Positions 15,576-30,493 of a stretch of DNA of 33,086 nucleotides are shown here, piece by piece (the stretch's first letter is position 1; each line of letters starts with the position of its first letter). Origin of the DNA: Nitrospirales bacterium (GTDB lineage: Bacteria > Nitrospirota > Nitrospiria > Nitrospirales > UBA8639); NCBI GenBank assembly GCA_012270585.1, contig JAAXIB010000048.1, forward strand, positions 1 through 33,086, in the 5' to 3' direction. The notes under the pieces were generated by a model that saw only the letters and a program-made list of their open reading frames with translations, did not search any database and had not been told where the DNA came from. The position numbers were made by a program, and so were the translations under genes.

Positions 15576-15751
15576 GATATTTCGGGTTCCCGTTGTGTGA
15601 TGGCCGATGAAATCTGCCCTTGCCTCTTTCGCCGAATCATAGAACAGGGGTTGAATCTGACGTATAATGCCAAGTTTATCGACAATTTTACACGGGAGAT
15701 TGGAACGAAAATAGCCTACGATTTCCCGAATTGGTCATTCACTGCGTCCAT

Positions 15752-15846
15752 AATGACAATTAGTGTCAAAAATAGTTCCAAAAATAGTCATAAAAGGTGA
15801 ATAATAGAGCAAAAAATATGCTAAAAAGTGCATTAATGGTGCAAAC
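15752..15846. repeat. AT-rich leader repeat, copy B
   Basis: This stretch aligns with 12421-12517 over its whole length, with scattered substitutions and one-base gaps. It marks the left side of the intact restriction island. It could be an island end or a conserved regulatory leader. There is no coding potential. Confidence 0.65.
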
Positions 15847-15901
15847 TGGCAACTTGGACTGATACGAAAAACAGAAGACCGTAGGCATGGAAGTCGGGTA
15901 G

Positions 15902-15927
15902 GTCGGGTTAGCGTAGCGTAACCCGAC
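15902..15927. repeat. Hairpin repeat GTCGGGTTA...TAACCCGAC
   Basis: Perfect 9-base arms enclose an 8-base loop GCGTAGCG. This is a widespread kind of dispersed intergenic hairpin in bacteria. It lies between the leader repeat and the hsdM operator. Confidence 0.6.
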
Positions 15928-15980
15928 AATCCCAGCGTCACCAGACAGCCTGGTTTGAAGATTTGCAATGAATGGCTGCT

Positions 15981-16019
15981 TTTGATATGTTTGCTATTAA
16001 ATAACTCAAACATATCAAA
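15981..16019. promoter_or_regulatory. Long inverted repeat before HTH-hsdM
   Basis: The arms TTTGATATGTTTG (15981-15993) and CAAACATATCAAA (16007-16019) are perfectly complementary over 13 bases, with a 13-base spacer containing TATTAAATA, which could be a -10 box. The right arm ends four bases before the ATG at 16024, leaving no room for an unobstructed Shine-Dalgarno sequence. The hsdM product has an N-terminal XRE-type HTH, so this is a likely autoregulatory operator. A mRNA hairpin that blocks translation is an alternative. Confidence 0.65.
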
Positions 16020-16023
16020 TTTT

Positions 16024-17845
<1,822 letters not shown>

Positions 17846-17859
<14 letters not shown>

Positions 17860-19153
17860 CGTGAAACTTGCGGGTCACCGCCGGTGGTTGCCGGTAGGCG
17901 ATGCCTATGAAGTTACGAGGAAACCACGTGGGCTTAATACGTCTCAATTGGCAGCGATCCCATTCGCGTCGATGGCTGATCTTCCGCAAGGCGGTGCGTA
18001 CGCACCTGATTACACCATGAAGGTGCCGACCGAGATCAAGAGCGGAACATATTTTGAGCGAGGTGACATTCTTGTAGCGAAAATTACGCCATCTTTTGAG
18101 AACGGCAAGCAGGCGCTCACGGCCGGGTTGCCAAATCCTTTTGGTTTCGCAACTACGGAAGTCATCCCCCTTCGACCGCGTACAGACGGACATGATCGAC
18201 GGTTGCTGTTCTTCTACCTGTTGCATCCAGATGTTCGTCATCATGTAGCCGAGCGCATGGAAGGCACGACTGGCCGACAGCGCGTGCCTGAGGAAGTGCT
18301 CCTCGATCTGCCATTCCCCGAGTTCGAGCCAGAAGAACAAACCGCAATCTCTGACTCCTTGGAGACAATCCAGCGGCTAATAGAGACCGAGATGAAATCT
18401 GCACAGACGGCGATTGGCCTCAAGTACGCCACGATGCGATCGCTCTTCACGCGCGGCCTGCGGGGTGAGCCGCAGAAAGAGACCGAGATCGGCTCTGTGC
18501 CAGAGAGTTGGAGAGTCTCGACTCTGGGAGAAACCGCACAACTCGAACGTGGACGCTTTATGCACCGCCCTCGGAACGAACCACGGTTTTACGGTGGGGC
18601 AACACCGTTTGTCCAAACCGGAGATGTCGTTCGGTCTGGCGGCCGTATCAGCGAATTTGTCCAAACACTTAACGAAGATGGCGTTGCGATAAGTCGCGTT
18701 TTTCCTGCGGGAACGATTCTCATCACGATAGCCGCAAACATAGGATTCACAGGAATTTTGCAGTTCGCCAGCGCTTGTCCCGATAGCCTCGTCGCTATAA
18801 CACCAAATCAGTCACTCAATGTCGAGTTTTTGGAATATTTTCTCCAAACCCAGCAAGGAGAAATGGATAAACTCGCCCCAAAGGGAACGCAGAAGAATAT
18901 CAATATTCAGTTTCTCACACCTTGGCCAATCGTAGTCCCTCCCGACAAAGAAGAGCAGCGCGAAATCGTTTCGATCTTGGAGGCCATCGACCACAAGATC
19001 AACCTGCATCGAAAAAAACTCGCCGTACTCGACGACCTGTTCAAAGCGCTATTGCACAAGCTGATGACCGGCGAAATTCGCGTCGCTGCTCTTGACCTCT
19101 CGGTACTCACCGGCATTGAGGAAAATATGGACACAAACGAGGTATATGCATGA
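17846..19153 (+). CDS. hsdS: Type I restriction-modification specificity subunit
   Basis: The 435-residue protein has the two-TRD layout of HsdS, which sets the split target site for methylation and cleavage. TRD1 is about 12-165, ending [14 protein letters not shown], followed by a helical spacer (about 166-205). TRD2 starts with [14 protein letters not shown] near 216 and ends with [14 protein letters not shown], followed by the second helical spacer ([37 protein letters not shown]). The start at 17846 is supported by AGGGG seven bases upstream and by the 14-base overlap with hsdM. The target sequence cannot be read from the protein. Its stop overlaps the next gene by four bases (ATGA). Confidence 0.93.
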
Positions 19154-20775
19154 AATTCAAGAGTGCCACAATTAAGGACTTCAAACGCTTTACAGATTTG
19201 ACTGTTCAGAGTGTACCCGACACAGCCCGCCTGATCCTGCTTGCCGGCCCGAACGGATGTGGCAAATCTTCATTCTTCGATGCACTCATCGCGTGGCGTA
19301 CGCGGGAGGCGCTGAAAAAGCAACTCGGCTGGAGCGGCTTCCAATGGGACCCGGATTATCATGACAAAGCGAATACAGGACTTGACAATAATTGGCAGTC
19401 AAAAATAAATCTGGAGCCGTTCGGGTCAGCCCCGGCTGAACCCAGAAAGGCCATATACGTTCGGTCCGCGTACAGAAACGACCCCGAGTTTCAAATACAG
19501 AACTTGTCCCGTCTTGGAGATCCGCTGGAGAATCTTCCTGTGGCACGAATGATCAATAATGATGCGGCTGTCTCCAAGAATTTTCAGCGCCTCGTAGGTC
19601 AGTCAATAGAGGGCCTTTTTGTGCCAGATGATGGCTCCATAACGTTGGATGCCTACAAGAAACAAATCCTTGGCGATATCAGAAACGCCCTTTCAGTGCT
19701 CTTTCCGGAATTGAAACTCGATAGCTTGGGCAATCCTCTAGAAGGCGGGACCTTTCGGTTTACGAAGGGCTTGAGCACAGGGTTTTCATTCAAGAACCTC
19801 TCCGGCGGCGAAAAGGCGGCATTCGATCTTATCCTTGATCTGATTGTTGCGCGTCGTTCATACGACGACACGCTCTTTTGCATCGACGAACCAGAATCGC
19901 ACATGAACGCACGGCTTCAGGCTGAGCTTCTATCCGTGCTCTATGATTTAATTCCCAAAAACTGTCAGTTGATGCTGGCGACACATTCCATCGGGATGAT
20001 GCGCCGGGCTCGGGACATCGAAACTAAGAATCCCGGAAGCGTGGTTTTTCTGGATTTCGGAGACCGCGATTTCGATAAACCCCAGATCATCGAACCGGCA
20101 AAACCGGATCGGACATTCTGGGAGAGAGCTCACAAGGTTGCACTCGATGACTTAGCGGCACTGGTGGCACCCAAGCGGGTTGTCATCTGTGAGGGTGAAC
20201 CGATGACGAGTCAGCCTGTTGGGAACCACTCCCATGACGCTAGATGCTACGAGCGCATATTCGAGGATGAGTTCCCGGAGACCCGCTTTGTGTCGATGGG
20301 CAATGACTGGCAGGTTGTTGGGGACAAGCGCGGTCTGGCGGCAACACTTCTTTCATTGATCGATGGACTGGAGGTTGTGCGGCTGATCGATCGTGATGAT
20401 CGAACCGAAGGAAAAATTGCTGAACTGAGATGTGACGGTATCCGGGTTTTATCGAAGCGCAATCTGGAATCGTACTTGTTCGACGATGAGGTTCTCAGAG
20501 CGTTCGCTGAGTCAGTCGGGAAGGCAGACAAGGCCCAAGAACTTCTCACGAGGAAGGAAAGCATCCGTACTGCCAGAACCGGCAACGCCCAAGACGACCT
20601 GAAGCCCGCAAGTGGCCAGATTTATGTAGCGTGCAAGGAAATCTTGGGTCTTACGCAACATGGAAATACGACAGAGGAGTTTATGCAAGAAACGCTTGCC
20701 CCGCTCATCAAACCAGGGTTGAGCGTGTACGACGAACTGAAGCGCGACATCTTCGGCGTACAGACAGATTCATGA
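19150..20775 (+). CDS. OLD-like ATPase with TOPRIM nuclease-type domain
   Basis: The 541-residue protein pairs an ABC/SMC-type ATPase with a TOPRIM-like domain, as in OLD-family nucleases. Walker A is GPNGCGKSS at 33-41, the signature is NLSGGEKAAFDL at 216-227, Walker B is LFCIDEPESH at 242-251 and the switch His is H279 in LATHS. The C-terminal domain has VVICEGE at 344-350, D363 in HDARCYERIF, and IDRDDR at 413-418, i.e. the E...DxD layout of TOPRIM, plus NLESYLFDDEVL at 438-449, which recalls DUF4435. Relatives (OLD, Gabija GajA, PARIS AriA/AriB) act in anti-phage defence. It is inside the hsd operon with a four-base overlap on each side, so it is co-translated with hsdS and the HEPN-like gene. 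Confidence 0.85.
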   Translation: MKFKSATIKDFKRFTDLTVQSVPDTARLILLAGPNGCGKSSFFDALIAWRTREALKKQLGWSGFQWDPDYHDKANTGLDNNWQSKINLEPFGSAPAEPRKAIYVRSAYRNDPEFQIQNLSRLGDPLENLPVARMINNDAAVSKNFQRLVGQSIEGLFVPDDGSITLDAYKKQILGDIRNALSVLFPELKLDSLGNPLEGGTFRFTKGLSTGFSFKNLSGGEKAAFDLILDLIVARRSYDDTLFCIDEPESHMNARLQAELLSVLYDLIPKNCQLMLATHSIGMMRRARDIETKNPGSVVFLDFGDRDFDKPQIIEPAKPDRTFWERAHKVALDDLAALVAPKRVVICEGEPMTSQPVGNHSHDARCYERIFEDEFPETRFVSMGNDWQVVGDKRGLAATLLSLIDGLEVVRLIDRDDRTEGKIAELRCDGIRVLSKRNLESYLFDDEVLRAFAESVGKADKAQELLTRKESIRTARTGNAQDDLKPASGQIYVACKEILGLTQHGNTTEEFMQETLAPLIKPGLSVYDELKRDIFGVQTDS

Positions 20776-21503
20776 TGACAATGGCAGTTTGCCTTGCTCC
20801 TCGCAGTCTATCGTTGATGGTATTCGAGGGTATACATGTAGCCATGTCAAATTCGCAACAATCGGAATTGTATTGGCGTGGAGGACCTTTCCAAGTCAGC
20901 ATAATATCTCCCCCTGATGCTTCGCAGGCCAGCGTATCGCAAGCATTAAAGGTGCTTAAGGGATTCCGCGATGCGTGTCAGAAACAATACGCAGCCTTCT
21001 GTGGAGCAGTAAACGGAAGGCTCTTGGCATATGAACGCTTTCGTCAGGTTATAGAACCTGCTAACGGGGATAAGAGCTTCTTTATAGGAACGGGACCTCC
21101 AGACTCCGAACAATTGCCCGGACAGTCTACGATTGTGCAAATGAGCCAAAAAGATTTTCTCGAATCCTTGAAACAAGGCGGAGCATTTGAACAGCAACAC
21201 GCGAAAGCGTTTGCTGTATTCATCTATACTCTATGGGAAGAAAATTATAGGCAAAGAATTGCTAATGCCATGTCAGTCTCGAAAGACAGCGTGAATTGCG
21301 CATTGATGGGGGATATTCGCCACGTGAGGAATGTGATTATCCATGACAACTCTGTTGTCTCACAGGATTTTCCCGGCAAGCTTAAATTATTGTCACAAAT
21401 ATGGGATCTGAAACCGGGAGAGCTTAGAATCACGGAGAAGATGCTCCATTCCTGTATGGAACAGCTTAACGCTATACGCATACAAATAACCTCTGGCAGG
21501 TGA
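20772..21503 (+). CDS. HEPN-like protein of the restriction island
   Basis: The 243-residue protein is not a known named family member, but its C-terminal half reads MGDIRHVRNVIIHDN (residues 179-193), with R186 and H191 in the R-N-x3-H spacing of HEPN ribonucleases and the flanking helices expected for that fold. Many HEPN proteins cleave RNA during defence, while others have lost activity. The N-terminal half has no recognised domain. The start overlaps the previous stop (ATGA at 20772-20775), which favours coupled translation. An internal ATG at 20844 (MSNSQQSELYWRGG) is an alternative that removes 24 less convincing residues. The neighbour upstream is the OLD-like protein; the two may work together. 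Confidence 0.7.
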   Translation: MMTMAVCLAPRSLSLMVFEGIHVAMSNSQQSELYWRGGPFQVSIISPPDASQASVSQALKVLKGFRDACQKQYAAFCGAVNGRLLAYERFRQVIEPANGDKSFFIGTGPPDSEQLPGQSTIVQMSQKDFLESLKQGGAFEQQHAKAFAVFIYTLWEENYRQRIANAMSVSKDSVNCALMGDIRHVRNVIIHDNSVVSQDFPGKLKLLSQIWDLKPGELRITEKMLHSCMEQLNAIRIQITSGR

Positions 21504-21537
21504 TCGTAGATGTTCTAGGCAGTATAGGAATGTTCAC

Positions 21538-21633
21538 ATGGATAATGGCCAAATAGTAACACTGGCCGAAGTTGTCGAATCCGAGACGCTGGAGTTCAAG
21601 GCAACGGCCGAGACTTGCTGTGAGGTAACTTGA
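21538..21633 (+). pseudogene. Remnant of an AlbA_2/Schlafen-domain protein
   Basis: Thirty-one codons read MDNGQIVTLAEVVESETLEFKATAE in part, and then stop. ESETLEFKAT is the typical opening of the AlbA_2 (Schlafen, divergent AAA_4) domain of putative ATP-dependent regulators that are frequent in type I restriction loci. The rest of the gene (normally several hundred codons) is missing, so this looks like a scar of a deleted cargo gene. Confidence 0.6.
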
Positions 21634-21646
21634 TAAGAGGCAATGC

Positions 21647-21985
21647 TTGAAATTGCCAAATGTGCATCAGGCGCAGATCGAACGGGGAAAGATCACGGAT
21701 TACCTGCTATCATCCGTCAATCCGCGTAGCAGAGCCAAGGCAGATTTTTTTCTGAGCTTCGGGTTCAGCATAGATCGTTGGGAAGAGTTTGCGGAGGCAT
21801 TGAAATTTCATGTCGCATCCCATGAGGTCGCCCGAGTTGTGGAGACCGCATACGGTCAGCGCTATCATGTGGACGGCGTGCTAGAAACACCGGACGGGCG
21901 CAATCCGGTGGTAAGGACCGTTTGGCAAGTCGACCTTGGAAGTGCGTATCCCAGGTTCATTACAGCGCACCCGCGCAGGAGGTGA
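21647..21985 (+). CDS. DUF6883 protein
   Basis: The 112-residue protein matches the DUF6883 pattern, starting KLPNVHQAQIERGKITDYLL and ending VVRTVWQVDLGSAYPRFITAHP. The function is unknown; the domain is found in small stand-alone proteins and in some toxin-like contexts. It starts with TTG at 21647, supported by AAGAGG six bases upstream. It is followed after three bases by a DUF4926 gene with a perfect Shine-Dalgarno sequence. The close pairing and the strong translation signal for the second gene fit a toxin-antitoxin layout. This is inference. Confidence 0.7.
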   Translation: MKLPNVHQAQIERGKITDYLLSSVNPRSRAKADFFLSFGFSIDRWEEFAEALKFHVASHEVARVVETAYGQRYHVDGVLETPDGRNPVVRTVWQVDLGSAYPRFITAHPRRR

Positions 21986-21988
21986 GAA

Positions 21989-22264
21989 GTGTTCAAGGAA
22001 CATGCTCAGATCGTGCTTACCGCTGATGTTCTTGGTGATGAGGGGGGAGAACTGAAACCGGGAGACGTGGGCACCATCATCCATATCCATCCCGATAAAG
22101 AAGCCTTTGTGGTGGAGTTCATGTCTCTGGATGGCGGGACGGTGGCTATCGCGACTGTGTTGCCCTCACAGGTGCGTCCCGTGACGGGCGCTGACCTCAT
22201 GCATGCCCGAACGGTTACGGTGGCTGTCCGTAGCGAACTCGATATCTTCCGTACTGGATCGTGA
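21989..22264 (+). CDS. DUF4926 protein
   Basis: The 91-residue protein matches DUF4926, an SH3-like small barrel: FKEHAQIVLTADV, then ELKPGDVGTIIHIHPDKEAFVVEFMSLDGGTVAIATVLPSQVRPV. It starts with GTG at 21989, with AGGAGG at 21977-21982 six bases before it, the best ribosome binding site of the island. Such proteins are usually encoded next to small partners like DUF6883. The C-terminal 20 residues past QVRPV run on without family resemblance. Function is unknown; an antitoxin or immunity role is a guess from context. Confidence 0.7.
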   Translation: MFKEHAQIVLTADVLGDEGGELKPGDVGTIIHIHPDKEAFVVEFMSLDGGTVAIATVLPSQVRPVTGADLMHARTVTVAVRSELDIFRTGS

Positions 22265-22343
22265 GAATGGCAAGAGTAGATGGAAATGGGCCTGCGTGCA
22301 GCCACTCCCGGAAACCACCGGCGGGACTCAGATCTTTTCCGGA

Positions 22344-22730
22344 TCACCAGAGCCGGCGAACGCCATATTGATCGAAGAGTGTCTCAATCGAGATGAGAAC
22401 GAGGTTGCGCGCAAGTGCCTGGGCTATCAGGATCCGGTCGAAGGGGTCGCGAAGGGGACCCTGCAACGCGCCGGCGCGGGCTGCGTCCTCCACGGTTATT
22501 GGCAGCCCCTCAAAGTTCTCATCGGCTATGTGGCCGGTAATGTCCTCAGCTAGCCCTTCCGCGTCCGGGAGTCTACGTGCCCGGTATTTGGTGGCGATTT
22601 CCCACGCTGACGCCGCGCTGATCAGGACGTCGTTCTCCTCATCCGCTATCGCCTGCCGGGCGGACTCGGATAAGCGTGCGTTTCCGGCAAACCACCAAAT
22701 GAATGTGTGGGTATCAAGCAGAAGGCGCAC
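22344..22730 (-). CDS. vapC: PIN-domain toxin, VapC family (intact copy)
   Basis: The 128-residue protein is a PIN-domain ribonuclease of the type with MRLLLDTHTFIWW at the start (D6), LISAASAWEIATKYR (E in the middle), and RDPFDRILIAQALARNLVLISIE at the end with its two Asp. All catalytic acids are present, in contrast to its frameshifted paralogue at 12620-12998. It reads opposite to the hsd genes. It follows the antitoxin gene with a three-base gap. Its 3' end meets the DUF4926 gene tail to tail at 80 bases. Confidence 0.9.
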   Translation of the reverse strand: MRLLLDTHTFIWWFAGNARLSESARQAIADEENDVLISAASAWEIATKYRARRLPDAEGLAEDITGHIADENFEGLPITVEDAARAGALQGPLRDPFDRILIAQALARNLVLISIETLFDQYGVRRLW

Positions 22731-22733
22731 AGG

Positions 22734-22988
22734 CTACGTCTTCCCCTCCCATGTAGTCAACTCCTCCTCCGGCAGCGGGTCAAAGAAGAAGCTGTCGTCG
22801 AAAATAGCATCGTCCAGCTTGATCCGGCCCTTCCATGAGCCGAATTGCCGCTTGCTCCGTTTTGGGACGCGCACGAGCCGCGCCACCGGCTCGCCGTTGC
22901 GGGCAATGACCACTTCCTCGCCGGCTTCAACTTGCAAGAGAAGGCGCGATAGGTTGGTCTTTGCTTCATGGACGTTCACTTTTGCCAT
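22734..22988 (-). CDS. Phd/YefM-type antitoxin (intact copy)
   Basis: The 84-residue protein reads AKVNVHEAKTNLSRLLLQVEAGEEVVIARNGEPVARLVR in the DNA-binding half and ends FFFDPLPEEELTTWEGK in the toxin-binding half. It is the partner of the PIN toxin downstream. It is divergent from hsdR, with 50 bases between their starts, and the operator-like block at 23011-23030 lies in that gap. Repressor binding there could also affect hsdR expression. AGGGCTCCTT complement (AAGGAGCCCT) lies directly before the start and gives a good Shine-Dalgarno sequence (AAGGAG). Confidence 0.9.
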   Translation of the reverse strand: MAKVNVHEAKTNLSRLLLQVEAGEEVVIARNGEPVARLVRVPKRSKRQFGSWKGRIKLDDAIFDDSFFFDPLPEEELTTWEGKT

Positions 22989-23010
22989 AGAGGGCTCCTT
23001 AATGACAGCC

Positions 23011-23030
23011 TTAGCTAATTATATGACTAA
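23011..23030. promoter_or_regulatory. Operator-like block between phd and hsdR
   Basis: TTAGCTAATTATATGACTAA is shared at 18 of 20 bases with the relic copy at 13258-13277. The half-sites TTAG/CTAA recur in it. It lies 23 bases upstream of the antitoxin start and nine bases before the hsdR TTG codon, so one antitoxin-bound site could control both directions. Confidence 0.5.
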
Positions 23031-23038
23031 TAGGAAAC

Positions 23039-26011
23039 TTGTCAAGCTTGGAACTGGTCGTGAGTGATCTCAAGATTAGCGAGGCTGCCTCGGTCCAGTT
23101 CCCCATGGTTCGTCACGCGGCAGAGGTCGGCTGGACGCCGCTCCCGCCGGAAGTCGCGATGCATAAGCGCGGCGGCGAGGCCGGGATGCTGTTCCGGGAT
23201 GAACTCGAAGAGGCACTCGGGCGGTTCAATTCCTGGATGGCGGACGACGTTATCCGCTCCGTGATCGAGAGGATCGAAGCGGTCCCACCGACTATCGAGG
23301 GCAACCGCGAGATGCTCGCTTGGCTGCACGGCGAGCGGCAATGGTACGACGAGGCCGAGAAGCGTCACCGCCGCATCCGGCTCGTTGATTTTGAGACGCC
23401 GAATGCCAACGTCTACCACGCCACCTGGGAATGGAAGCTCAAGCCCCCTGCCCGCAAGGGCAACCGGGCGGACGTGATGTTCGTGATCAACGGGATGCCG
23501 GTTGCCATCGTCGAGCACAAGAACCCCAAGGACGCCAATGCCATCGAGCGTGGGATCACACAACTGCGCCGCTACGAGGTCGAGACCCCTGAGTTGATAG
23601 CCTCGCCACAACTCTTCAACGTCACGCACCTGGTCGAATACTGGTACGGCGTTACCTGGAACGCATCGCGGCGACACATGGCGCGCTGGAAGGAACGACC
23701 GGAGGAAAGCTATCGGTTTGCCGTCCAATCGTTCTTCGAGCCGGCCGATTTTCTGCGCACGTTGCGGGATTGGATTCTCTTTTACGTCGAGGACGGTGAA
23801 ACGCGAAAATCCGTGCTGCGCCAGCACCAGCGCCGAGCGATTGACCGTATCATTGCGCGTTGCGAGGAGCCGGAGAAGCGGCGCGGACTCATCTGGCATA
23901 CGCAGGGTTCCGGTAAGACCTTTACGTTGCTCACGGCCGCTCGCCTGATCCTGGAGCGCGTGGACCGATTCCGCACGCCGACGGTCGTGGTGGTCGTGGA
24001 CCGGACGGAGCTTGAAGGACAGCTCAAGGGTTGGGTCGAGAGGCTGCTCGGCGAGATGCAGCAGCAGGACATCGCGGTCTGGCGCGCCGGTTCCAAGGCT
24101 GAACTCCGGGATCTGTTCCAAACCGACAAACGCGGCCTGATCCTTTCGATGATCCACAAGTTCGAGGGGATCGAGAAGGATGCCAATGCCCGCGACAACG
24201 TCTACGTATTCATCGATGAGGCGCACCGGTCGGTGGCCAAGGATCTGGGCACGTACCTGATGGCGGCTTTGCCCAACGCGACGATCATCGGGTTCACCGG
24301 CACGCCCATCGACAAGACGTCCCAGGGCGAGGGCACCTTCAGAATTTTCGGTGCCGACGACGAGTTGGGCTATCTCGACAAATACACCATTGCCGAGTCG
24401 ATCGAAGACGAAACGACGCTGCCGATCCGTCACACGATGGCGCCAAGTGAGATGACGGTACCGGCGGAGCGGCTCGACAAGGAGTTCTTCGCCTTGGCCG
24501 AGTTCGAAGGTGTCACCGACGTCGATGAACTCAACAAGGTCCTTGATCGAGCAGTCGGCCTGCGCACGTTCCTCACCGCGGATGATCGGATCGAGAAGGT
24601 CGCGGCGTTTGTGGCCGAGCATTTCAGGGAGAACGTTGACCGGCTTGGCTATAAGGCGTTCCTCGTCGGCGTGAACCGGGAAGCCTGTGCCAAGTATAAG
24701 CGCGCGCTCGACAGGCTGTTGCCTCCTGAATGGACCGCGCCGGTCTACACGGAAAACGTCAACGACGTGGTGGAGCGTCCGCTGGTTGCCGAACTCCAGC
24801 TTTCTCCGGAACACGAGGCGGACGTGCGTCTTATGTTCAAGAGAGCGGATGAGAACCCGAAGATCCTCATTGTCACCGACAAGCTGCTGACTGGCTATGA
24901 CGCGCCACTTCTGTATTGCATGTATCTCGACAAACCGATGCGCGATCACGTGCTCTTACAGGCGATTGCGCGTGTGAACCGCCCTTACGTGGATGCCACC
25001 GGCACCCGCAAACGCATCGGTCTCGTGGTCGATTTTGTCGGTGTGTTACGCGAGTTGAGGAAGGCACTACGGTTCGACTCCGCGGATGTGAGTGGCGTGA
25101 TCGAAGACCTCGACCTGCTGCTGGCGGACTTTTTGGACAAGATCGAGCGGGCGAGAACGGACTACCTTGCCGGAGCAGGGAGCGGCGCAGCCGACGAGCG
25201 CCTCGAAGACATCGTCTACGGACGTTTCCTGGACCCGGAGCCACGCAAGGTGTTCTTTGAGGCGTACAAGGAGATCGAGGCGCTTTGGGAAATTCTCTCA
25301 CCCTCGCCCGAGCTTCGCGATCATATTGGAACGTACAAGCAGCTTGCGCAACTCTACACGGCCGTTCGGAACGCTTACACAACCAGAGTCACTTACGAGA
25401 TAGACCTCGCCAATAAGACGCGCTCGCTGATACAGGATGGTGCAGTTCAGCAAGGTCTCGGTTACCGGACGAAAACCGTGACGTTCGACGTGAACACTCT
25501 TGAATCGCTTCGAGGGGAATCCGGCTCCGATGAGGCCAAGGTGTTCAACCTCGTGCGTGGCCTGCACCGGGAGATCGAGGAGGATCGGGATTCGGCGTCC
25601 GTGCTTCGACCGCTCAAGGAGCGCGCCGAGCAAGTCCTGAAGGACCTGGAGGAGCGCAAGACGACCGGGCTCGCGGCAATGGACCTGCTGGCCGACATTG
25701 CCAGGGAAAAGGAAGCGGCTGCCAAGGCGGCGAAAGAAAGTGGGCTCTCGCCACGCGCGTTCGGCGTGTATTGGACATTAAAGAATGATCCGGGCCTCGG
25801 AACAAGCGGCATCGCGGCCATGGACTTGGCGAAGGAAACGGAAGATCTTCTCACGCGCTTTCCCAATGCTGCCGTCAACCCCGACGAGCAACGGCGCCTG
25901 CGCATGGTTCTCTATCGACTGCTTCTGCGACTGGACAAGGAAGAACGGAGCCGTGTCGTGAAGCTCATCCTCTCAATTCTTCTGGACGAAGGCGCCGATG
26001 CGGACGCGTGA
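23039..26011 (+). CDS. hsdR: Type I restriction endonuclease subunit R
   Basis: The 990-residue protein is a complete HsdR, which translocates and cleaves unmodified DNA. It opens with [25 protein letters not shown]. The PD-(D/E)xK nuclease is at 144-161 (D145, E159 and K161 in [18 protein letters not shown]). The helicase motor has Walker A HTQGSGKT at 287-294, IDEAHRS at 392-398, GFTGTP at 418-423 and the late motif [19 protein letters not shown]...[10 protein letters not shown]. The C-terminal helical region runs to the end. It is separated from hsdS by five intact genes and one relic. The start codon is uncertain: TTG at 23039 has AGGA upstream, GTG at 23060 lies closer to the conserved N-terminus, and ATG at 23105 would cut into it. 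It overlaps the metallopeptidase gene by 14 bases. Confidence 0.95.
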
Positions 26012-26300
26012 CAAACGGCGTGAGGTGATTCGCCACCGCGTTGAATACTGGTCGCGGCGACTGAGCGTCCGTCCGCGGTTGGTTCGCGTTCAGCGCATGA
26101 CGCAGAAGTGGGGTTCATGTTCAACGTCGGGCATCGTGACCCTGGCCTCCGACTTGGCCGACCGGGAATTGAGCTTCCAGAATTTCGTCATCGCGCATGA
26201 ACTGCTGCACCTGCGCGTGCCCAACCACGGCAAACTCTTCAAGGCATTGATGACGGCTCACGTGCCCGGTTGGAAAAGGCACGATGTAAAAAGGCGGTGA
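25998..26300 (+). CDS. YgjP/SprT-like metallopeptidase of the restriction island
   Basis: The 100-residue protein is a small member of the YgjP-like (DUF45, WUxxx-type) zinc metallopeptidases. The metal motif is [19 protein letters not shown], with H67, E68, H71 and H77, preceded by the family block [14 protein letters not shown] (37-50). Full family members are about 230 residues; this short form keeps only the catalytic half. It overlaps the 3' end of hsdR by 14 bases, and such genes often close type I restriction operons. Regulated proteolysis of HsdR is known in type I systems (by ClpXP), so a dedicated protease would make sense, but that role is inference. Confidence 0.85.
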
Positions 26301-26340
26301 CCTTCGACAGCGGAGGTCCTCACTTCTCAAAGTCCCCCCA

Positions 26341-28719
26341 ATGAACAACTCTCTCCCATGCTGGAGTCCGCGGCGGTGGTACGGGGAACTCCGGCACGTC
26401 TGGCAGGATACCCGTCTGCTGGTTCTGTCCGCGCAAATCGCGGCCATTTACGCGGCCGTGCTCATTCCGTTCAAGGTGGGGATTCCGATCATCCCCGGCT
26501 TCGTGGAACTCAGACCGGCCAACGTGATTCCCATCGTCAGTTCGCTGCTCTTTGGCCCGGCCGCGGCGTGGGGGGCCGGAATCGGCAACGTGATCGGGGA
26601 TTGTTTCGGAACGCTGGGCCCGGCCAGTCTCTTCGGGTTTCTGGGAAATTTTCTCTATGGGTACGTGCCCTATCTGTTGTGGGGAAACCTGAGGTGGTTG
26701 TCGTCGGGGCGGGAACCCATGGTGCGTTCCTGGCGGCAGGGCGTGGAATACGTGATCGTTTGTGCCTTCGCGTCCATGGTGTGCGCCGCCACGATCGGAT
26801 GGGGCGTGGAACTGTTGGGGCTCCTCCCGTTTTGGCTGTTGTTCCCCGCCATTTTCTTGAACAACCTGGTGATGGCAACGTTGCTCGGCCCACCGCTGCT
26901 GTTGTTTCTCCATCCGCGGGTCAAGCGATGGAACCTGTATTACGGTGACTTGGCAATCGTGGGCGCGGCCGGAGAGACGCAGGACGCTTCCGGCGATCCT
27001 CTCCACTCAGCGTCGTCGTCACGATCGGCAATCGCCGAGTCCGTTGCCGTCTCCATTCAGGACGTGACGTTTCGACCGATCCATGCGGAGCAGCCTGTGC
27101 TTAAACACGTGTCCCTGGTCGTCCCGCGCGGCGAATTGGTCGTGCTGATGGGCCGGAGCGGGTCCGGGAAGTCGTCCTTGTGTTATGCCTTGAACGGGCT
27201 GGTTCCGCAGTTTATCCAGGGCGAATGGGCAGGCACGGTGACGGTACACGGACAACCCACGACGCAATCTCCGGTGTGGCAGCAGGCGAACCGCGTCGGC
27301 ATGGTGTTTCAGGATTTCGAAACGCAACTGGTCTCGACCAACGTGGAGGCGGAGCTTCGATGCGCCTTGGAGACGCAGGGAGGAACGCACGACTTCGCCG
27401 ACGAAGAGTCCTTCCGCGAGCACGTGCGACGCCTCCTCGATCTGGTCGGATTATCGGGTCTGGAACGGCGTGACCCGTTTTCCTTGTCGGGCGGGCAACG
27501 GCAGCGCCTGGTGGTGGCATCGGTCCTGGTCCGGGAACCGCAGGTGATCGTCATGGACCAACCGCTGACGGATCTCGATCCCGCGGGCAGGCAGCAGTTT
27601 CTCCGTCTCTTGGCAGAACTGAAAGTCAAAGGGATAACCATCGTCATCGCCGGGCATGGAGTCGAAGACCTCATGGAAGCGGACCGGGTGTGCGTGCTGG
27701 ATGCAGGAGCAATGGTGTGGCAGGGCACCCCTCGCGAACTGCTCGGTCAGCCGGATCTGGCCGAACGATACGGCGTGACCCCGTACCCGTTGGCGGCATG
27801 TTTTCAGGGACGGGGTGCTCCAACGTTACCAACGACGGTTGAAGAAGCCTGGCAATTGGCCGATACCCTCGACCTGAACATCGACGCGCCGCAGTTTGAC
27901 GAGCAGGGTTTCCGACCGGAACCTCCGGCAACCGTGCTGGAACTCAGCAACGTGTCGGCGCACTACCAGCCGGGCGTGCCGGCACTCTCCCGGGTTTCCG
28001 TATCGTTTCAGACCGGGGAATTCGTGGCGATTCTCGGGCAGAATGGTTCGGGAAAGAGCACGCTGGCCAAATTATGCAACGGGCTCCTGTTGCCGTCGGA
28101 AGGCCGCGTCCTGGTGCTCGGAAACGATACGCAACAAACCGGGGTCTTGTCGTCCTTCGTCGGGTACGTTTTTCAAAACCCCGACCATCAGATTTTTGCG
28201 GAAACCGTGCGCAAGGAAATCGCCTTCGGCGCGGAGAACGCGGGATGTTCGCCAAGTGAATGCGAAATCCGGGTCACCGAAGCGCTACGAGCGGTCGGGT
28301 TGACCGGGGCCGAAGAGCGGGACCCGTTTTCTCTGACGAAAGGCGAGCGTCAGCGCGTGGCGGTCGCGTCCATCCTTGCCGCCAAACCCCGTATCCTGAT
28401 TGTGGATGAGCCTACCACCGGACTCGACGCGGAGGAATCGGCTCGCATGATGGACATGATGCGCGCGCTGCATCGACAGGGCCACACCATTATCGTGATT
28501 ACCCATGACATGGGGATCGTCGCGAACTACGCGACGCGATGCGTGCTAATGCGACGCGGCGAAATCTTGGCGGATGGCCCGACCCGGGACATTTTCTCGG
28601 ACCCCGAACTCATCCGGTCGGCGGCCTTGGCGTTGCCGACCCTGACCCGGTTCGCCCAGCGGTGGGGTGTGACGTTGCTCACGGTCGAGGAAGTGCGAAA
28701 GGCCTGGCGCGCGTCATGA
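26341..28719 (+). CDS. ECF transporter: S component fused to two ATPase domains
   Basis: The 792-residue protein joins three parts of an energy-coupling-factor importer. Residues about 25-195 are a membrane S component (FKVGIPIIPGFVELRPANVIPIVSSLLFGPAAAWGAGIGNVIGD), of the riboflavin/QueT-like kind. ATPase 1 has Walker A GRSGSGKSS at 271-279, Q324, LSGGQ at 382-386, D406-Q407 in IVMDQP and H439. ATPase 2 has Walker A GQNGSGKST at 566-574, FQNPDHQIF at 611-619, LTKGE at 665-669, D689-E690 in LIVDEP and a VITHD switch. ATPase 1 lacks the catalytic Glu, and ATPase 2 has a degenerate signature; in the dimer these two defects fall in the same site. The substrate is unknown. EcfT follows with a four-base overlap. 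Confidence 0.9.
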   Translation: MNNSLPCWSPRRWYGELRHVWQDTRLLVLSAQIAAIYAAVLIPFKVGIPIIPGFVELRPANVIPIVSSLLFGPAAAWGAGIGNVIGDCFGTLGPASLFGFLGNFLYGYVPYLLWGNLRWLSSGREPMVRSWRQGVEYVIVCAFASMVCAATIGWGVELLGLLPFWLLFPAIFLNNLVMATLLGPPLLLFLHPRVKRWNLYYGDLAIVGAAGETQDASGDPLHSASSSRSAIAESVAVSIQDVTFRPIHAEQPVLKHVSLVVPRGELVVLMGRSGSGKSSLCYALNGLVPQFIQGEWAGTVTVHGQPTTQSPVWQQANRVGMVFQDFETQLVSTNVEAELRCALETQGGTHDFADEESFREHVRRLLDLVGLSGLERRDPFSLSGGQRQRLVVASVLVREPQVIVMDQPLTDLDPAGRQQFLRLLAELKVKGITIVIAGHGVEDLMEADRVCVLDAGAMVWQGTPRELLGQPDLAERYGVTPYPLAACFQGRGAPTLPTTVEEAWQLADTLDLNIDAPQFDEQGFRPEPPATVLELSNVSAHYQPGVPALSRVSVSFQTGEFVAILGQNGSGKSTLAKLCNGLLLPSEGRVLVLGNDTQQTGVLSSFVGYVFQNPDHQIFAETVRKEIAFGAENAGCSPSECEIRVTEALRAVGLTGAEERDPFSLTKGERQRVAVASILAAKPRILIVDEPTTGLDAEESARMMDMMRALHRQGHTIIVITHDMGIVANYATRCVLMRRGEILADGPTRDIFSDPELIRSAALALPTLTRFAQRWGVTLLTVEEVRKAWRAS

Positions 28720-29492
28720 ACCTGTCATTGTACGTGGATGCCCGGACGTGGGTGCACCGGCTGGACGGCCGGACGAAAATCCTCTGCCTGCTCGGGCTCT
28801 TTTCCTTGAGCCTGCTGTTTTCGGACCCGGCGTACTTGCTGGGGCTCTGTGCGGGCGTCCTGGGTTTGGTGCTCTGGGCGCAGAGTCTTCACAATCTGAA
28901 AAAGATTTGGATCCTGCTGGCGTTGTTGTTTGCGTACAGCGTGGCGCTCTGGCCTTTTTTCGTGGAAGGGATCACCCCGTTGTTCACAATCGGCGGGCTG
29001 ACCGTCATGCAGGAAGGCGTGCTGCATGGGATGGGGATGGGCCTGCGGCTGAATGCCATGCTCATCAGCGGCATCGTGCTCTTGTCGACCACAACCATTG
29101 AAGAATTGGGCGAAGCCTCGAACCGACTGGGCGTGCCCCGGCCCCTGGGTTTTTCGTTGTCGCTCGCCTTTCGGTGGGTTCCCACGTTGCTGGGTTCGAT
29201 CGGGGCCGTGATTCAGGCTCAACGGTCTCGAGGGCTGGACGTGCACTCAAAGGGCGTGGCCGGAAAGATCCGCCAATATCCCCCGTTGATCGTGCCCTTA
29301 ATCGGTCATACCCTTCGCCAGACCAATCTGCTCGCTATGGCCCTGGAATCCAAGGGCTTCGGAGCCGGTCAGGTCCGCCGCCCCTTGTTTGTTTCGAAAA
29401 TGCACGGGTCCGATTTCGCGGCGCTCGCGGTGATCGCCGTCCTGGTGATGGGAGGTCTATGGATGAGGCTCAACGGGTATGGTACTATTTGA
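28716..29492 (+). CDS. ecfT: ECF transporter transmembrane subunit EcfT
   Basis: The 258-residue protein is the EcfT (CbiQ-like) coupling subunit with about five membrane helices. It begins LSLYVDARTWVHRLDGRTKILCLL, the family opening, and carries the coupling-helix motifs AQRSRGLDVH near 169-178 and MALESKGFGAG near 205-215, which touch the two ATPases. The start at 28716 overlaps the stop of the S-component/ATPase gene (ATGA at 28716-28719); longer frames upstream lie inside that gene. Together the two genes encode a complete ECF importer. Confidence 0.9.
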   Translation: MNLSLYVDARTWVHRLDGRTKILCLLGLFSLSLLFSDPAYLLGLCAGVLGLVLWAQSLHNLKKIWILLALLFAYSVALWPFFVEGITPLFTIGGLTVMQEGVLHGMGMGLRLNAMLISGIVLLSTTTIEELGEASNRLGVPRPLGFSLSLAFRWVPTLLGSIGAVIQAQRSRGLDVHSKGVAGKIRQYPPLIVPLIGHTLRQTNLLAMALESKGFGAGQVRRPLFVSKMHGSDFAALAVIAVLVMGGLWMRLNGYGTI

Positions 29493-29563
29493 ACGGAACC
29501 GGTGACGTGCCTAAGCACTCGCACGTACAACTTACAGCGTTTAGCAGGAAAGGTGGTGGCGGG

Positions 29564-30493
29564 ATGAAAGGGTCTGTCGCTGTTGTGAAACTTCTGAGTG
29601 CCGTTTGTGTCCTCCTGTTGGTTCAGGGGCAGTCTCTCCTCGCTCAGGAGGGAGGCTCAACCGCACCCACCAAAACGATCATAGGTGATCTGCTGGACGT
29701 GGATCGGGATTTCTACATCGTGCGGGGCGAGCGGGGCGAGATTCAGATCGAAGCCACGTACAAAACCGAGATCACGGAAGAATTCGGATATGGGGACCGC
29801 ATCAAGGCCCTGGTGCTCATGAACAACAAGGCGTTGAAGATCGAACGCGCCGGGCCGGATGACGTGTCGGGGGTCACGGAAAATCTGCCGGCCACCGCGC
29901 AAGCTCCTGAAGCCCAACCAGGCGCCAAGGGGGAAGCCCCTGCGCCGGAGGCGCAGCCCAAGCAACCGGAATCCAAAACCATTGTGGGCGACCTGTTGGA
30001 CGTTGATCGGGATTTCTACATCGTGCGGGGCGAGCGGGGCGAGATTCAGATCGAAGCCACGCATAAAACCGAGATCACGGAAGAATTTGGATATGGGGAT
30101 CGCATCAAGGCCCTGGTACTCATGAACAACAAGGCGTTGAAGATCGAACGCGCCGGGCCGGATGACGTGTCGGGGGTCACGGAAAATCTGCCGGCCACTG
30201 CGCAAGCCCCCGCAGCCCAACCAGGCGCCAAGGGGGAAGCCCCTGCGCCGGAGGCGCAGCCCAAGCAACCGGAATCCAAAACCGTTATTGGCGATCTGCT
30301 GGACGTGGACCGGGACTTCTACATCGTGCGGGGCGAACGGGGCGAGATTCAAATCGAAGCCACGTACAAGACCGAGATTACGGAAGAATTCGGATATGGG
30401 GATCGGATTAAAGCAAAGATCCTCATGAACAATAAGGCGTTGAAGATCGAGCGCGCCGGGCTGGATGACGTGCCGGGGGTCTACACGGAATGA
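29564..30493 (+). CDS. Secreted protein with three tandem 101-residue repeats
   Basis: The 309-residue protein has a signal peptide (about 1-28, hydrophobic core LLSAVCVLLLVQG, likely cleaved after SLLA). The mature part has three copies of a module of about 67 residues (GDLLDVDRDFYIVRGERGE, then ATYKTEITEEFGYGDRIKA) joined by Pro/Ala/Gln/Glu-rich linkers of about 34 residues. The module has a small beta-barrel-like pattern similar to single-domain periplasmic proteins of Nitrospira-type bacteria; its function is unknown. The third copy ends at the module with PGVYTE. The start is chosen at the signal peptide and has GGTGG and GGG upstream. The gene is convergent with the S9 peptidase gene. 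Confidence 0.85.
   Translation: MKGSVAVVKLLSAVCVLLLVQGQSLLAQEGGSTAPTKTIIGDLLDVDRDFYIVRGERGEIQIEATYKTEITEEFGYGDRIKALVLMNNKALKIERAGPDDVSGVTENLPATAQAPEAQPGAKGEAPAPEAQPKQPESKTIVGDLLDVDRDFYIVRGERGEIQIEATHKTEITEEFGYGDRIKALVLMNNKALKIERAGPDDVSGVTENLPATAQAPAAQPGAKGEAPAPEAQPKQPESKTVIGDLLDVDRDFYIVRGERGEIQIEATYKTEITEEFGYGDRIKAKILMNNKALKIERAGLDDVPGVYTE
29672..30493. repeat. Tandem repeats of 303 bp inside the secreted-protein gene
   Basis: Units begin at 29672, 29975 and 30278, exactly 303 bases apart, with a lone final unit that lacks the linker. Units 1 and 2 differ by only a few bases, and unit 3 is somewhat more diverged near its end. Near-identity at DNA level shows recent duplication or ongoing gene conversion. 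Confidence 0.9.

Follow-up and report, generated by a model that had tools for sequence, protein, structure and literature searches.

The PARIS defence system was first found via a phage anti-restriction protein, and it is triggered by Ocr (PMC9122126). Its two-gene form consists of the ATPase AriA and of AriB, which acts as a tRNase (PMC12409363). Fused AriAB proteins carry an ABC ATPase and a DUF4435-type TOPRIM domain, in this order, on one chain. A comparable strategy is followed by PrrC (EcoprrI), a HEPN-class anticodon nuclease that is seated in a type I restriction operon and fires upon blocked restriction (PMC12707154). The combination of ATPase and TOPRIM domains on a single chain is also found in OLD and GajA, which are DNA nucleases. 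Moreover, the interval between hsdS and hsdR has already been described as an embedding site for other genes, harboring DarTG2 (EPEC) and another pair (PMC12255303) as well as TgvAB (V. cholerae VPI-2) and RloF (C. jejuni) (PMC11411939).

Here, we analyzed a 33,086-nucleotide stretch of DNA (the window), contig 48 of the 2.5 Mb genome of a Nitrospirales bacterium. It contains a type I restriction operon in which hsdS is directly followed by the gene for a single-chain ATPase-TOPRIM protein (P1) and a gene for a HEPN-like protein (P2). The closest P1-bearing relative of this genome is a Nitrospira MAG. The operon is organized as follows:

15955-26300: type I restriction operon (hsdM, hsdS, P1, P2, DUF6883 gene, PIN gene on the opposite strand, hsdR, YgjP-like gene)
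15955..17859, + strand: hsdM, with an N-terminal HTH (N6_Mtase E 3e-74; HTH_31 E 3.6e-8, residues 28-77)
17777..19153, + strand: hsdS, exact start provisional (Methylase_S E 3.2e-23)
19139..19153, + strand: GAGG ribosome-binding site (19139-19142) and ATGA overlap of hsdS stop and P1 start (from the sequence)
19150..23038, + strand: variable defence slot from hsdS to hsdR (different contents in nine related operons)
19150..20775, + strand: P1, single-chain ABC ATPase with AriB/DUF4435-like TOPRIM domain, 541 aa (ORF, Pfam, PADLOC, hhalign)
20844..21503, + strand: P2, HEPN-like, 219 aa, alternative start at 20772 (Rx4H motif, HepT structure matches)
21647..21985, + strand: DUF6883 protein inside the slot (Pfam DUF6883 E 2.9e-34)
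22344..22730, - strand: PIN-domain (VapC-like) protein inside the slot (Pfam PIN E 9.6e-16)
23039..26011, + strand: hsdR (NCBIfam hsdR E 1.2e-128)
25998..26300, + strand: YgjP-like metallopeptidase at the operon end (Pfam E 5.2e-24)

The YgjP-like gene occupies an equivalent position in six other loci (L007, L011, L058, L060, L062 and L063). No tRNA genes were found within the window, and a search for repeats across 15700-26400 did not reveal the ends of a cassette. The HTH of HsdM is of the XRE type (window 15955-16200), and a similar N-terminal stretch is present in the HsdM protein of L011; a methylase with its own HTH perhaps regulates itself. Outside the operon, an ORF at 29174-30493 contains a repeat of ~100 residues (GDLLDVDRDFYIVRGERGEIQIEAT...) in three near-identical copies.

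The earlier note had placed a Walker A motif, an LSGGE signature, a Walker B motif, an EGE...DRDD layout and an NLESYLFDDEV block on one polypeptide, and all of these elements are indeed present in the 541-aa ORF:

19246..19272, + strand: Walker A GPNGCGKSS, P1 residues 33-41 (nearly invariant in 12 family members)
19798..19812, + strand: ABC signature LSGGE, P1 residues 217-221 (L, S, G220 and E invariant)
19876..19896, + strand: Walker B FCIDEPE, P1 residues 243-249 (C244, D246 and E247 invariant)
20176..20448, + strand: TOPRIM core, P1 residues 343-433 (E348 at 20191-20193; D414/D416 at 20389-20397)
20461..20493, + strand: NLESYLFDDEV block, P1 residues 438-448 (counterpart of the AriAB VENLFL block)

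The TOPRIM motifs read CEGEP (containing E348) and LIDRDD (containing D414 and D416). In an alignment of 12 family members that are 37-70% identical to the window protein, L217, S218, G220, E221, D246, E247, H279, E348, D414 and D416 are invariant, and the H-switch, CEG and DRD elements are invariant or nearly so, with three prophage-type relatives showing LIDLDD instead of LIDRDD (DLD for DRD) while retaining the DxD pattern. Since this conservation extends down to 37% identity, the motifs are unlikely to have arisen by chance. An AlphaFold2 model of P1 (pLDDT 79.6) predicts strands at residues 343-347, 378-382, 408-413 and 431-433 and helices at 362-371, 386-391, 396-403 and 420-428. Residues 343-433 would thus follow the strand/helix order of a TOPRIM domain, in which E348 follows the first strand and D414 the third, so that a TOPRIM arrangement is predicted within the 340-450 region. 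P1 is a real, intact gene that probably encodes an active defence protein.

To which family does this protein belong? Its N-terminal half is a clear ATPase (AAA_21 E 1.8e-18, 68.1 bits with a cut-off of 27; AAA_15 43.5 bits with a cut-off of 32.1), and DUF4435 scores 13.7 bits, under the Pfam gathering score of 27, with the best relative reaching 20.0. The top PADLOC match of P1 is AriAB (PDLC02981, E 1.1e-23), covering residues 211-461 and thus spanning both domains, followed by a second AriAB model (PDLC02982, E 4.5e-14), both judged by E value. When its C-terminal 211 residues were scanned alone, AriAB was the sole PADLOC match (E 4.8e-7), and the C-terminal half of the relative L044 likewise matched AriAB (E 8.5e-10). 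For comparison, we used six plasmid proteins, one of them scanned directly (AriAB E 3e-126, DUF4435 55.7 bits) and five gathered by similarity to it, three of which carry a DUF4435 annotation. In hhalign, the P1 family profile aligned with this set at 99.4% over 246 columns in both domains, and the TOPRIM half at 96.9% (E 1.9e-10), with E348, D414, D416 and E440 of P1 pairing with the invariant E290, D342, D344 and E368 of AriAB. None of the controls (20 column-shuffled versions, one reversed version and an unrelated family) exceeded 1.6%. A single sequence of two-gene AriB gave no match (1.4%), which makes this a weak comparison. Given that its TOPRIM half matches fused AriAB with aligned catalytic residues, and only AriAB in PADLOC, we conclude that P1 is a divergent single-gene PARIS-like protein. 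These results bear out both the reading of P1 as a single-chain ATPase-TOPRIM protein and the comparison with PARIS proposed in the earlier note.

P1 thus looks to be built like fused PARIS as a distant relative, although it falls below the strict DUF4435 cut-off. Where they align, the two are only about 21-24% identical, and both families occur as stand-alone genes on mobile elements. However, P1 is here embedded behind hsdS, and a tree of 12 P1 members and six AriAB proteins separates the groups by a 99/98 branch, with P1 on a long branch (effectively unrooted, since the GajA outgroup is too long for rooting). By sequence, the P1 family is a separate new branch of PARIS-like proteins with its own clade of 12 members. 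Two-gene AriA + AriB has the same domain set, which leads us to expect a tRNase effector, whereas the single chain of P1 has no free AriB to release. As a side observation, the 6.4-kb Salmonella and E. coli plasmids represented by L069 carry a lone AriAB-like gene, and the L069 plasmid encodes a ToxN/AbiQ-type toxin besides it.

On balance, we favor the view that P1 is related to PARIS (fused AriA-AriB) as a stand-alone protein of one chain, forms the first cargo behind hsdS and acts by a PARIS-like mechanism, a reading we hold with moderate confidence. Its ATPase part would assemble like AriA and keep the attached TOPRIM nuclease inactive. The trigger could be a phage protein that serves to block restriction, or it could be the loss of restriction itself. 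Once triggered, the TOPRIM part would cleave nucleic acid of the host, with a tRNA, the kind of substrate cut by AriB, as the most likely target, and growth would halt. Because the domains are joined, release would occur by rearrangement and not by the shedding of free AriB. P1 is best read as a stand-alone abortive-infection protein and may plausibly guard type I restriction in the manner of PARIS and PrrC. Like PrrC, it would arrest growth from within a type I operon and work as a restriction guard, with a predicted TOPRIM nuclease in place of the HEPN-class one.

The alternative that survives best holds that P1 is a mere passenger of the hsd operon, perhaps an active defence gene, with no functional tie to restriction; we give it a considerable chance, if one somewhat short of even. 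It is favored by the many unrelated defence genes that occupy the hsdS-hsdR gap. Six further genomes of the same genus carry an hsdR 79-93% identical to that of the window, and P1 was not found in any of them. In L059, the gap contains genes for TIR, pAgo (E 6.4e-190) and SIR2 (E 1.5e-121) proteins, in L060 for DSR2 (E 6.3e-226) and AIPR, in L058 for an AAA ATPase and a DNA methylase, in L062 for a HATPase and a methylase, and in L063 an ORF resembling the AIPR protein of L060. At L059:4510-10058 and L060:4833-11605, whole defence systems are located inside operons whose hsdR is >91% identical to that of the window. The hsdS-hsdR gap of this operon type is thus a defence slot with changing cargo, of which the DUF6883 gene (window 21647-21985) is also part. 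P1 shares this placement with DarTG2, TgvAB and RloF, but the embedded gene differs, and here one operon type accommodates many cargoes. In L058, L059, L061, L062 and L011, hsdM and hsdS flank a small gene whose product carries a retropepsin-like DTG(A/S)xDSLVPR motif; the window lacks this gene.

The distribution of P1 relatives bears on this alternative from both sides. The 14 other P1 loci comprise one from the genus and one from the phylum of the window, two of a Dehalococcoidia-genome class, four of a Rhizobium-MAG class, one on a Zymomonas plasmid, four on IMG/VR contigs (three mutually close, at least one within a Mu-like prophage) and one from an unclassed bacterium. As stand-alone genes, the relatives are found in a Mu-like prophage, on a plasmid, next to integrases and at chromosomal sites; among 50,697 phage records, there was no relative of P1, L044 or P2. 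Most lie far from type I operons, with no type I genes detected at ten of the loci by tblastn with the window Hsd proteins and reading of the flanks, a search that distant Hsd proteins would escape. In addition, in-frame stop codons break the gene in two relatives (L030 and L033). It thus decays in some genomes, as might a passenger. On the other hand, P1 and its relatives occur in or at two unrelated type I operons: one hsd operon type carries P1 in two distant groups (L007 and L011), and at L012:5037-13857 a relative adjoins an unrelated type I operon with a gene for PrrC (E 6.9e-134), making this locus a candidate for a site with two restriction guards. The Zymomonas plasmid likewise carries both a relative and a type I operon, ~8 kb apart. 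The earlier proposal that P1 guards the surrounding restriction system thus gains from the relatives in or at unrelated hsd operons, one with PrrC, and loses from the majority without such an operon nearby; the gene neighborhoods are at most suggestive of a functional tie between P1 and type I restriction.

A second alternative, that P1 is an OLD-type (class 1/GajA-like) nuclease cutting phage DNA directly without a guard role, appears unlikely. The domain order, ATPase then TOPRIM, is identical, and GajA and Thermus OLD are among the Foldseek matches of the whole P1 model, but these lists, like those from VIA, are filled by the ATPase half and barely probe the TOPRIM half. In hhalign, the TOPRIM half, aligned so well with AriAB, reached just 0.3% against GajA (one sequence), so that it is not detectably related to that of OLD/GajA at the sensitivity used, and its matching of AriAB only in PADLOC was obtained with GajA and Old models included. 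A UvrD-like GajB helicase gene, as in Gabija, is absent beside P1, where the next genes are P2, DUF6883, PIN and hsdR. The ATPase part matches the AriA-Ocr structure 8v45 (Z 16.2), and, taken alone, it is matched at least as well by PtuA, SMC and Rad50 heads; a BFVD fold search returned nothing noteworthy beyond ATPase-type matches. We rejected an identity as a PtuA/Septu or retron I-A effector: PtuA structures match the ATPase half best, yet neither an HNH PtuB nor a reverse transcriptase is encoded nearby, and AriAB is the sole match of the C-terminal half.

It is also conceivable that P1 represents a separate branch of single-gene PARIS wired to type I restriction: co-translated with HsdS, it would read the state of HsdMS and respond to the complex being occupied by an anti-restriction protein, as a TOPRIM counterpart to PrrC instead of a free-standing Ocr sensor; this we regard as quite improbable. 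The conserved neighbor of P1 is indeed hsdS. At the hsdS/P1 junction, a good ribosome-binding site (GAGG) precedes the start at a 7-nt spacing, and the window, L007 and L011, the three hsd operons of this kind in which P1 occurs, all share the ATGA overlap, a point that also counts for the favored reading. In L058, a different first cargo gene likewise overlaps hsdS by ATGA, so the overlap reflects the slot as much as P1.

That P1 and P2 form a translationally coupled two-gene effector, combining a DNA or tRNA nuclease with an RNase as the earlier note had suggested, is very improbable, since their adjacency on one strand, a possible ATGA overlap and the retained Rx4H motif of P2 are outweighed by the lack of pairing at other loci (0/14 for P1, 0/8 for P2 relatives) and by a following gene that is different each time, with different cargo in the slot of related operons. 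The module was rejected on this co-occurrence: tblastn and a P2-family profile detected no P2 relative near the other P1 loci, at 13 of which at least 1 kb of downstream sequence was readable, so that neither gene accompanies the other in the 22 loci and the conserved pairs that would have spoken for a module did not emerge. Downstream of P1 lie, instead, a 1119-aa protein, a nucleotidyltransferase-like ORF with a TIR gene, or hsdR. The 1119-aa protein (L007:5193-8549) belongs to no Pfam or PADLOC family at a trusted score.

P2 itself does contain the predicted RNVIIH (Rx4H) motif (21327-21344), with R162, I165 and H167 unchanged across an alignment of six members of its family; in the G229 relative, Y replaces the H of the motif. 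The P2 model is a helical bundle (pLDDT 75), and HepT toxins fill the top three VIA rows as its best solved matches, at Z 6.9-7.0, below the level trusted for helical bundles, and an rmsd of 3.8-3.9 over 108-112 residues. A helical bundle as anticipated is therefore predicted, but its likeness to HEPN toxins is weak. Foldseek with the P2 model gave nothing significant, no family was found in Pfam or NCBIfam, and PADLOC returned a weak match to a CARF-HEPN model (E 0.0026); a search of the genome contigs for P2-related loci found none. With its Rx4H motif and weak likeness to HepT, P2 is plausibly a HEPN protein. The proposal that its frame begins in the P1 stop codon holds insofar as the ATG at 20772 overlaps the P1 TGA (ATGA). 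This ATG is only a putative start, however: no Shine-Dalgarno sequence is visible upstream of 20772, the open frame extends back to a GTG at 20631, and no relative starts further upstream than the ATG at 20844. Taken together, P2 is best read as a neighbor only, a probable separate cargo in the slot it shares with P1.

The P1/P2 pair thus cautions against taking a neighbor within such a slot for a partner. As a compact one-chain form, P1 bears on a question raised in PMC10568477, namely how the workings of fused AriAB compare with those of the two-gene system. Finally, P1 behind hsdS and its relative at L012 with PrrC would represent naturally occurring examples of a guard that shares one gene cluster with what it guards.
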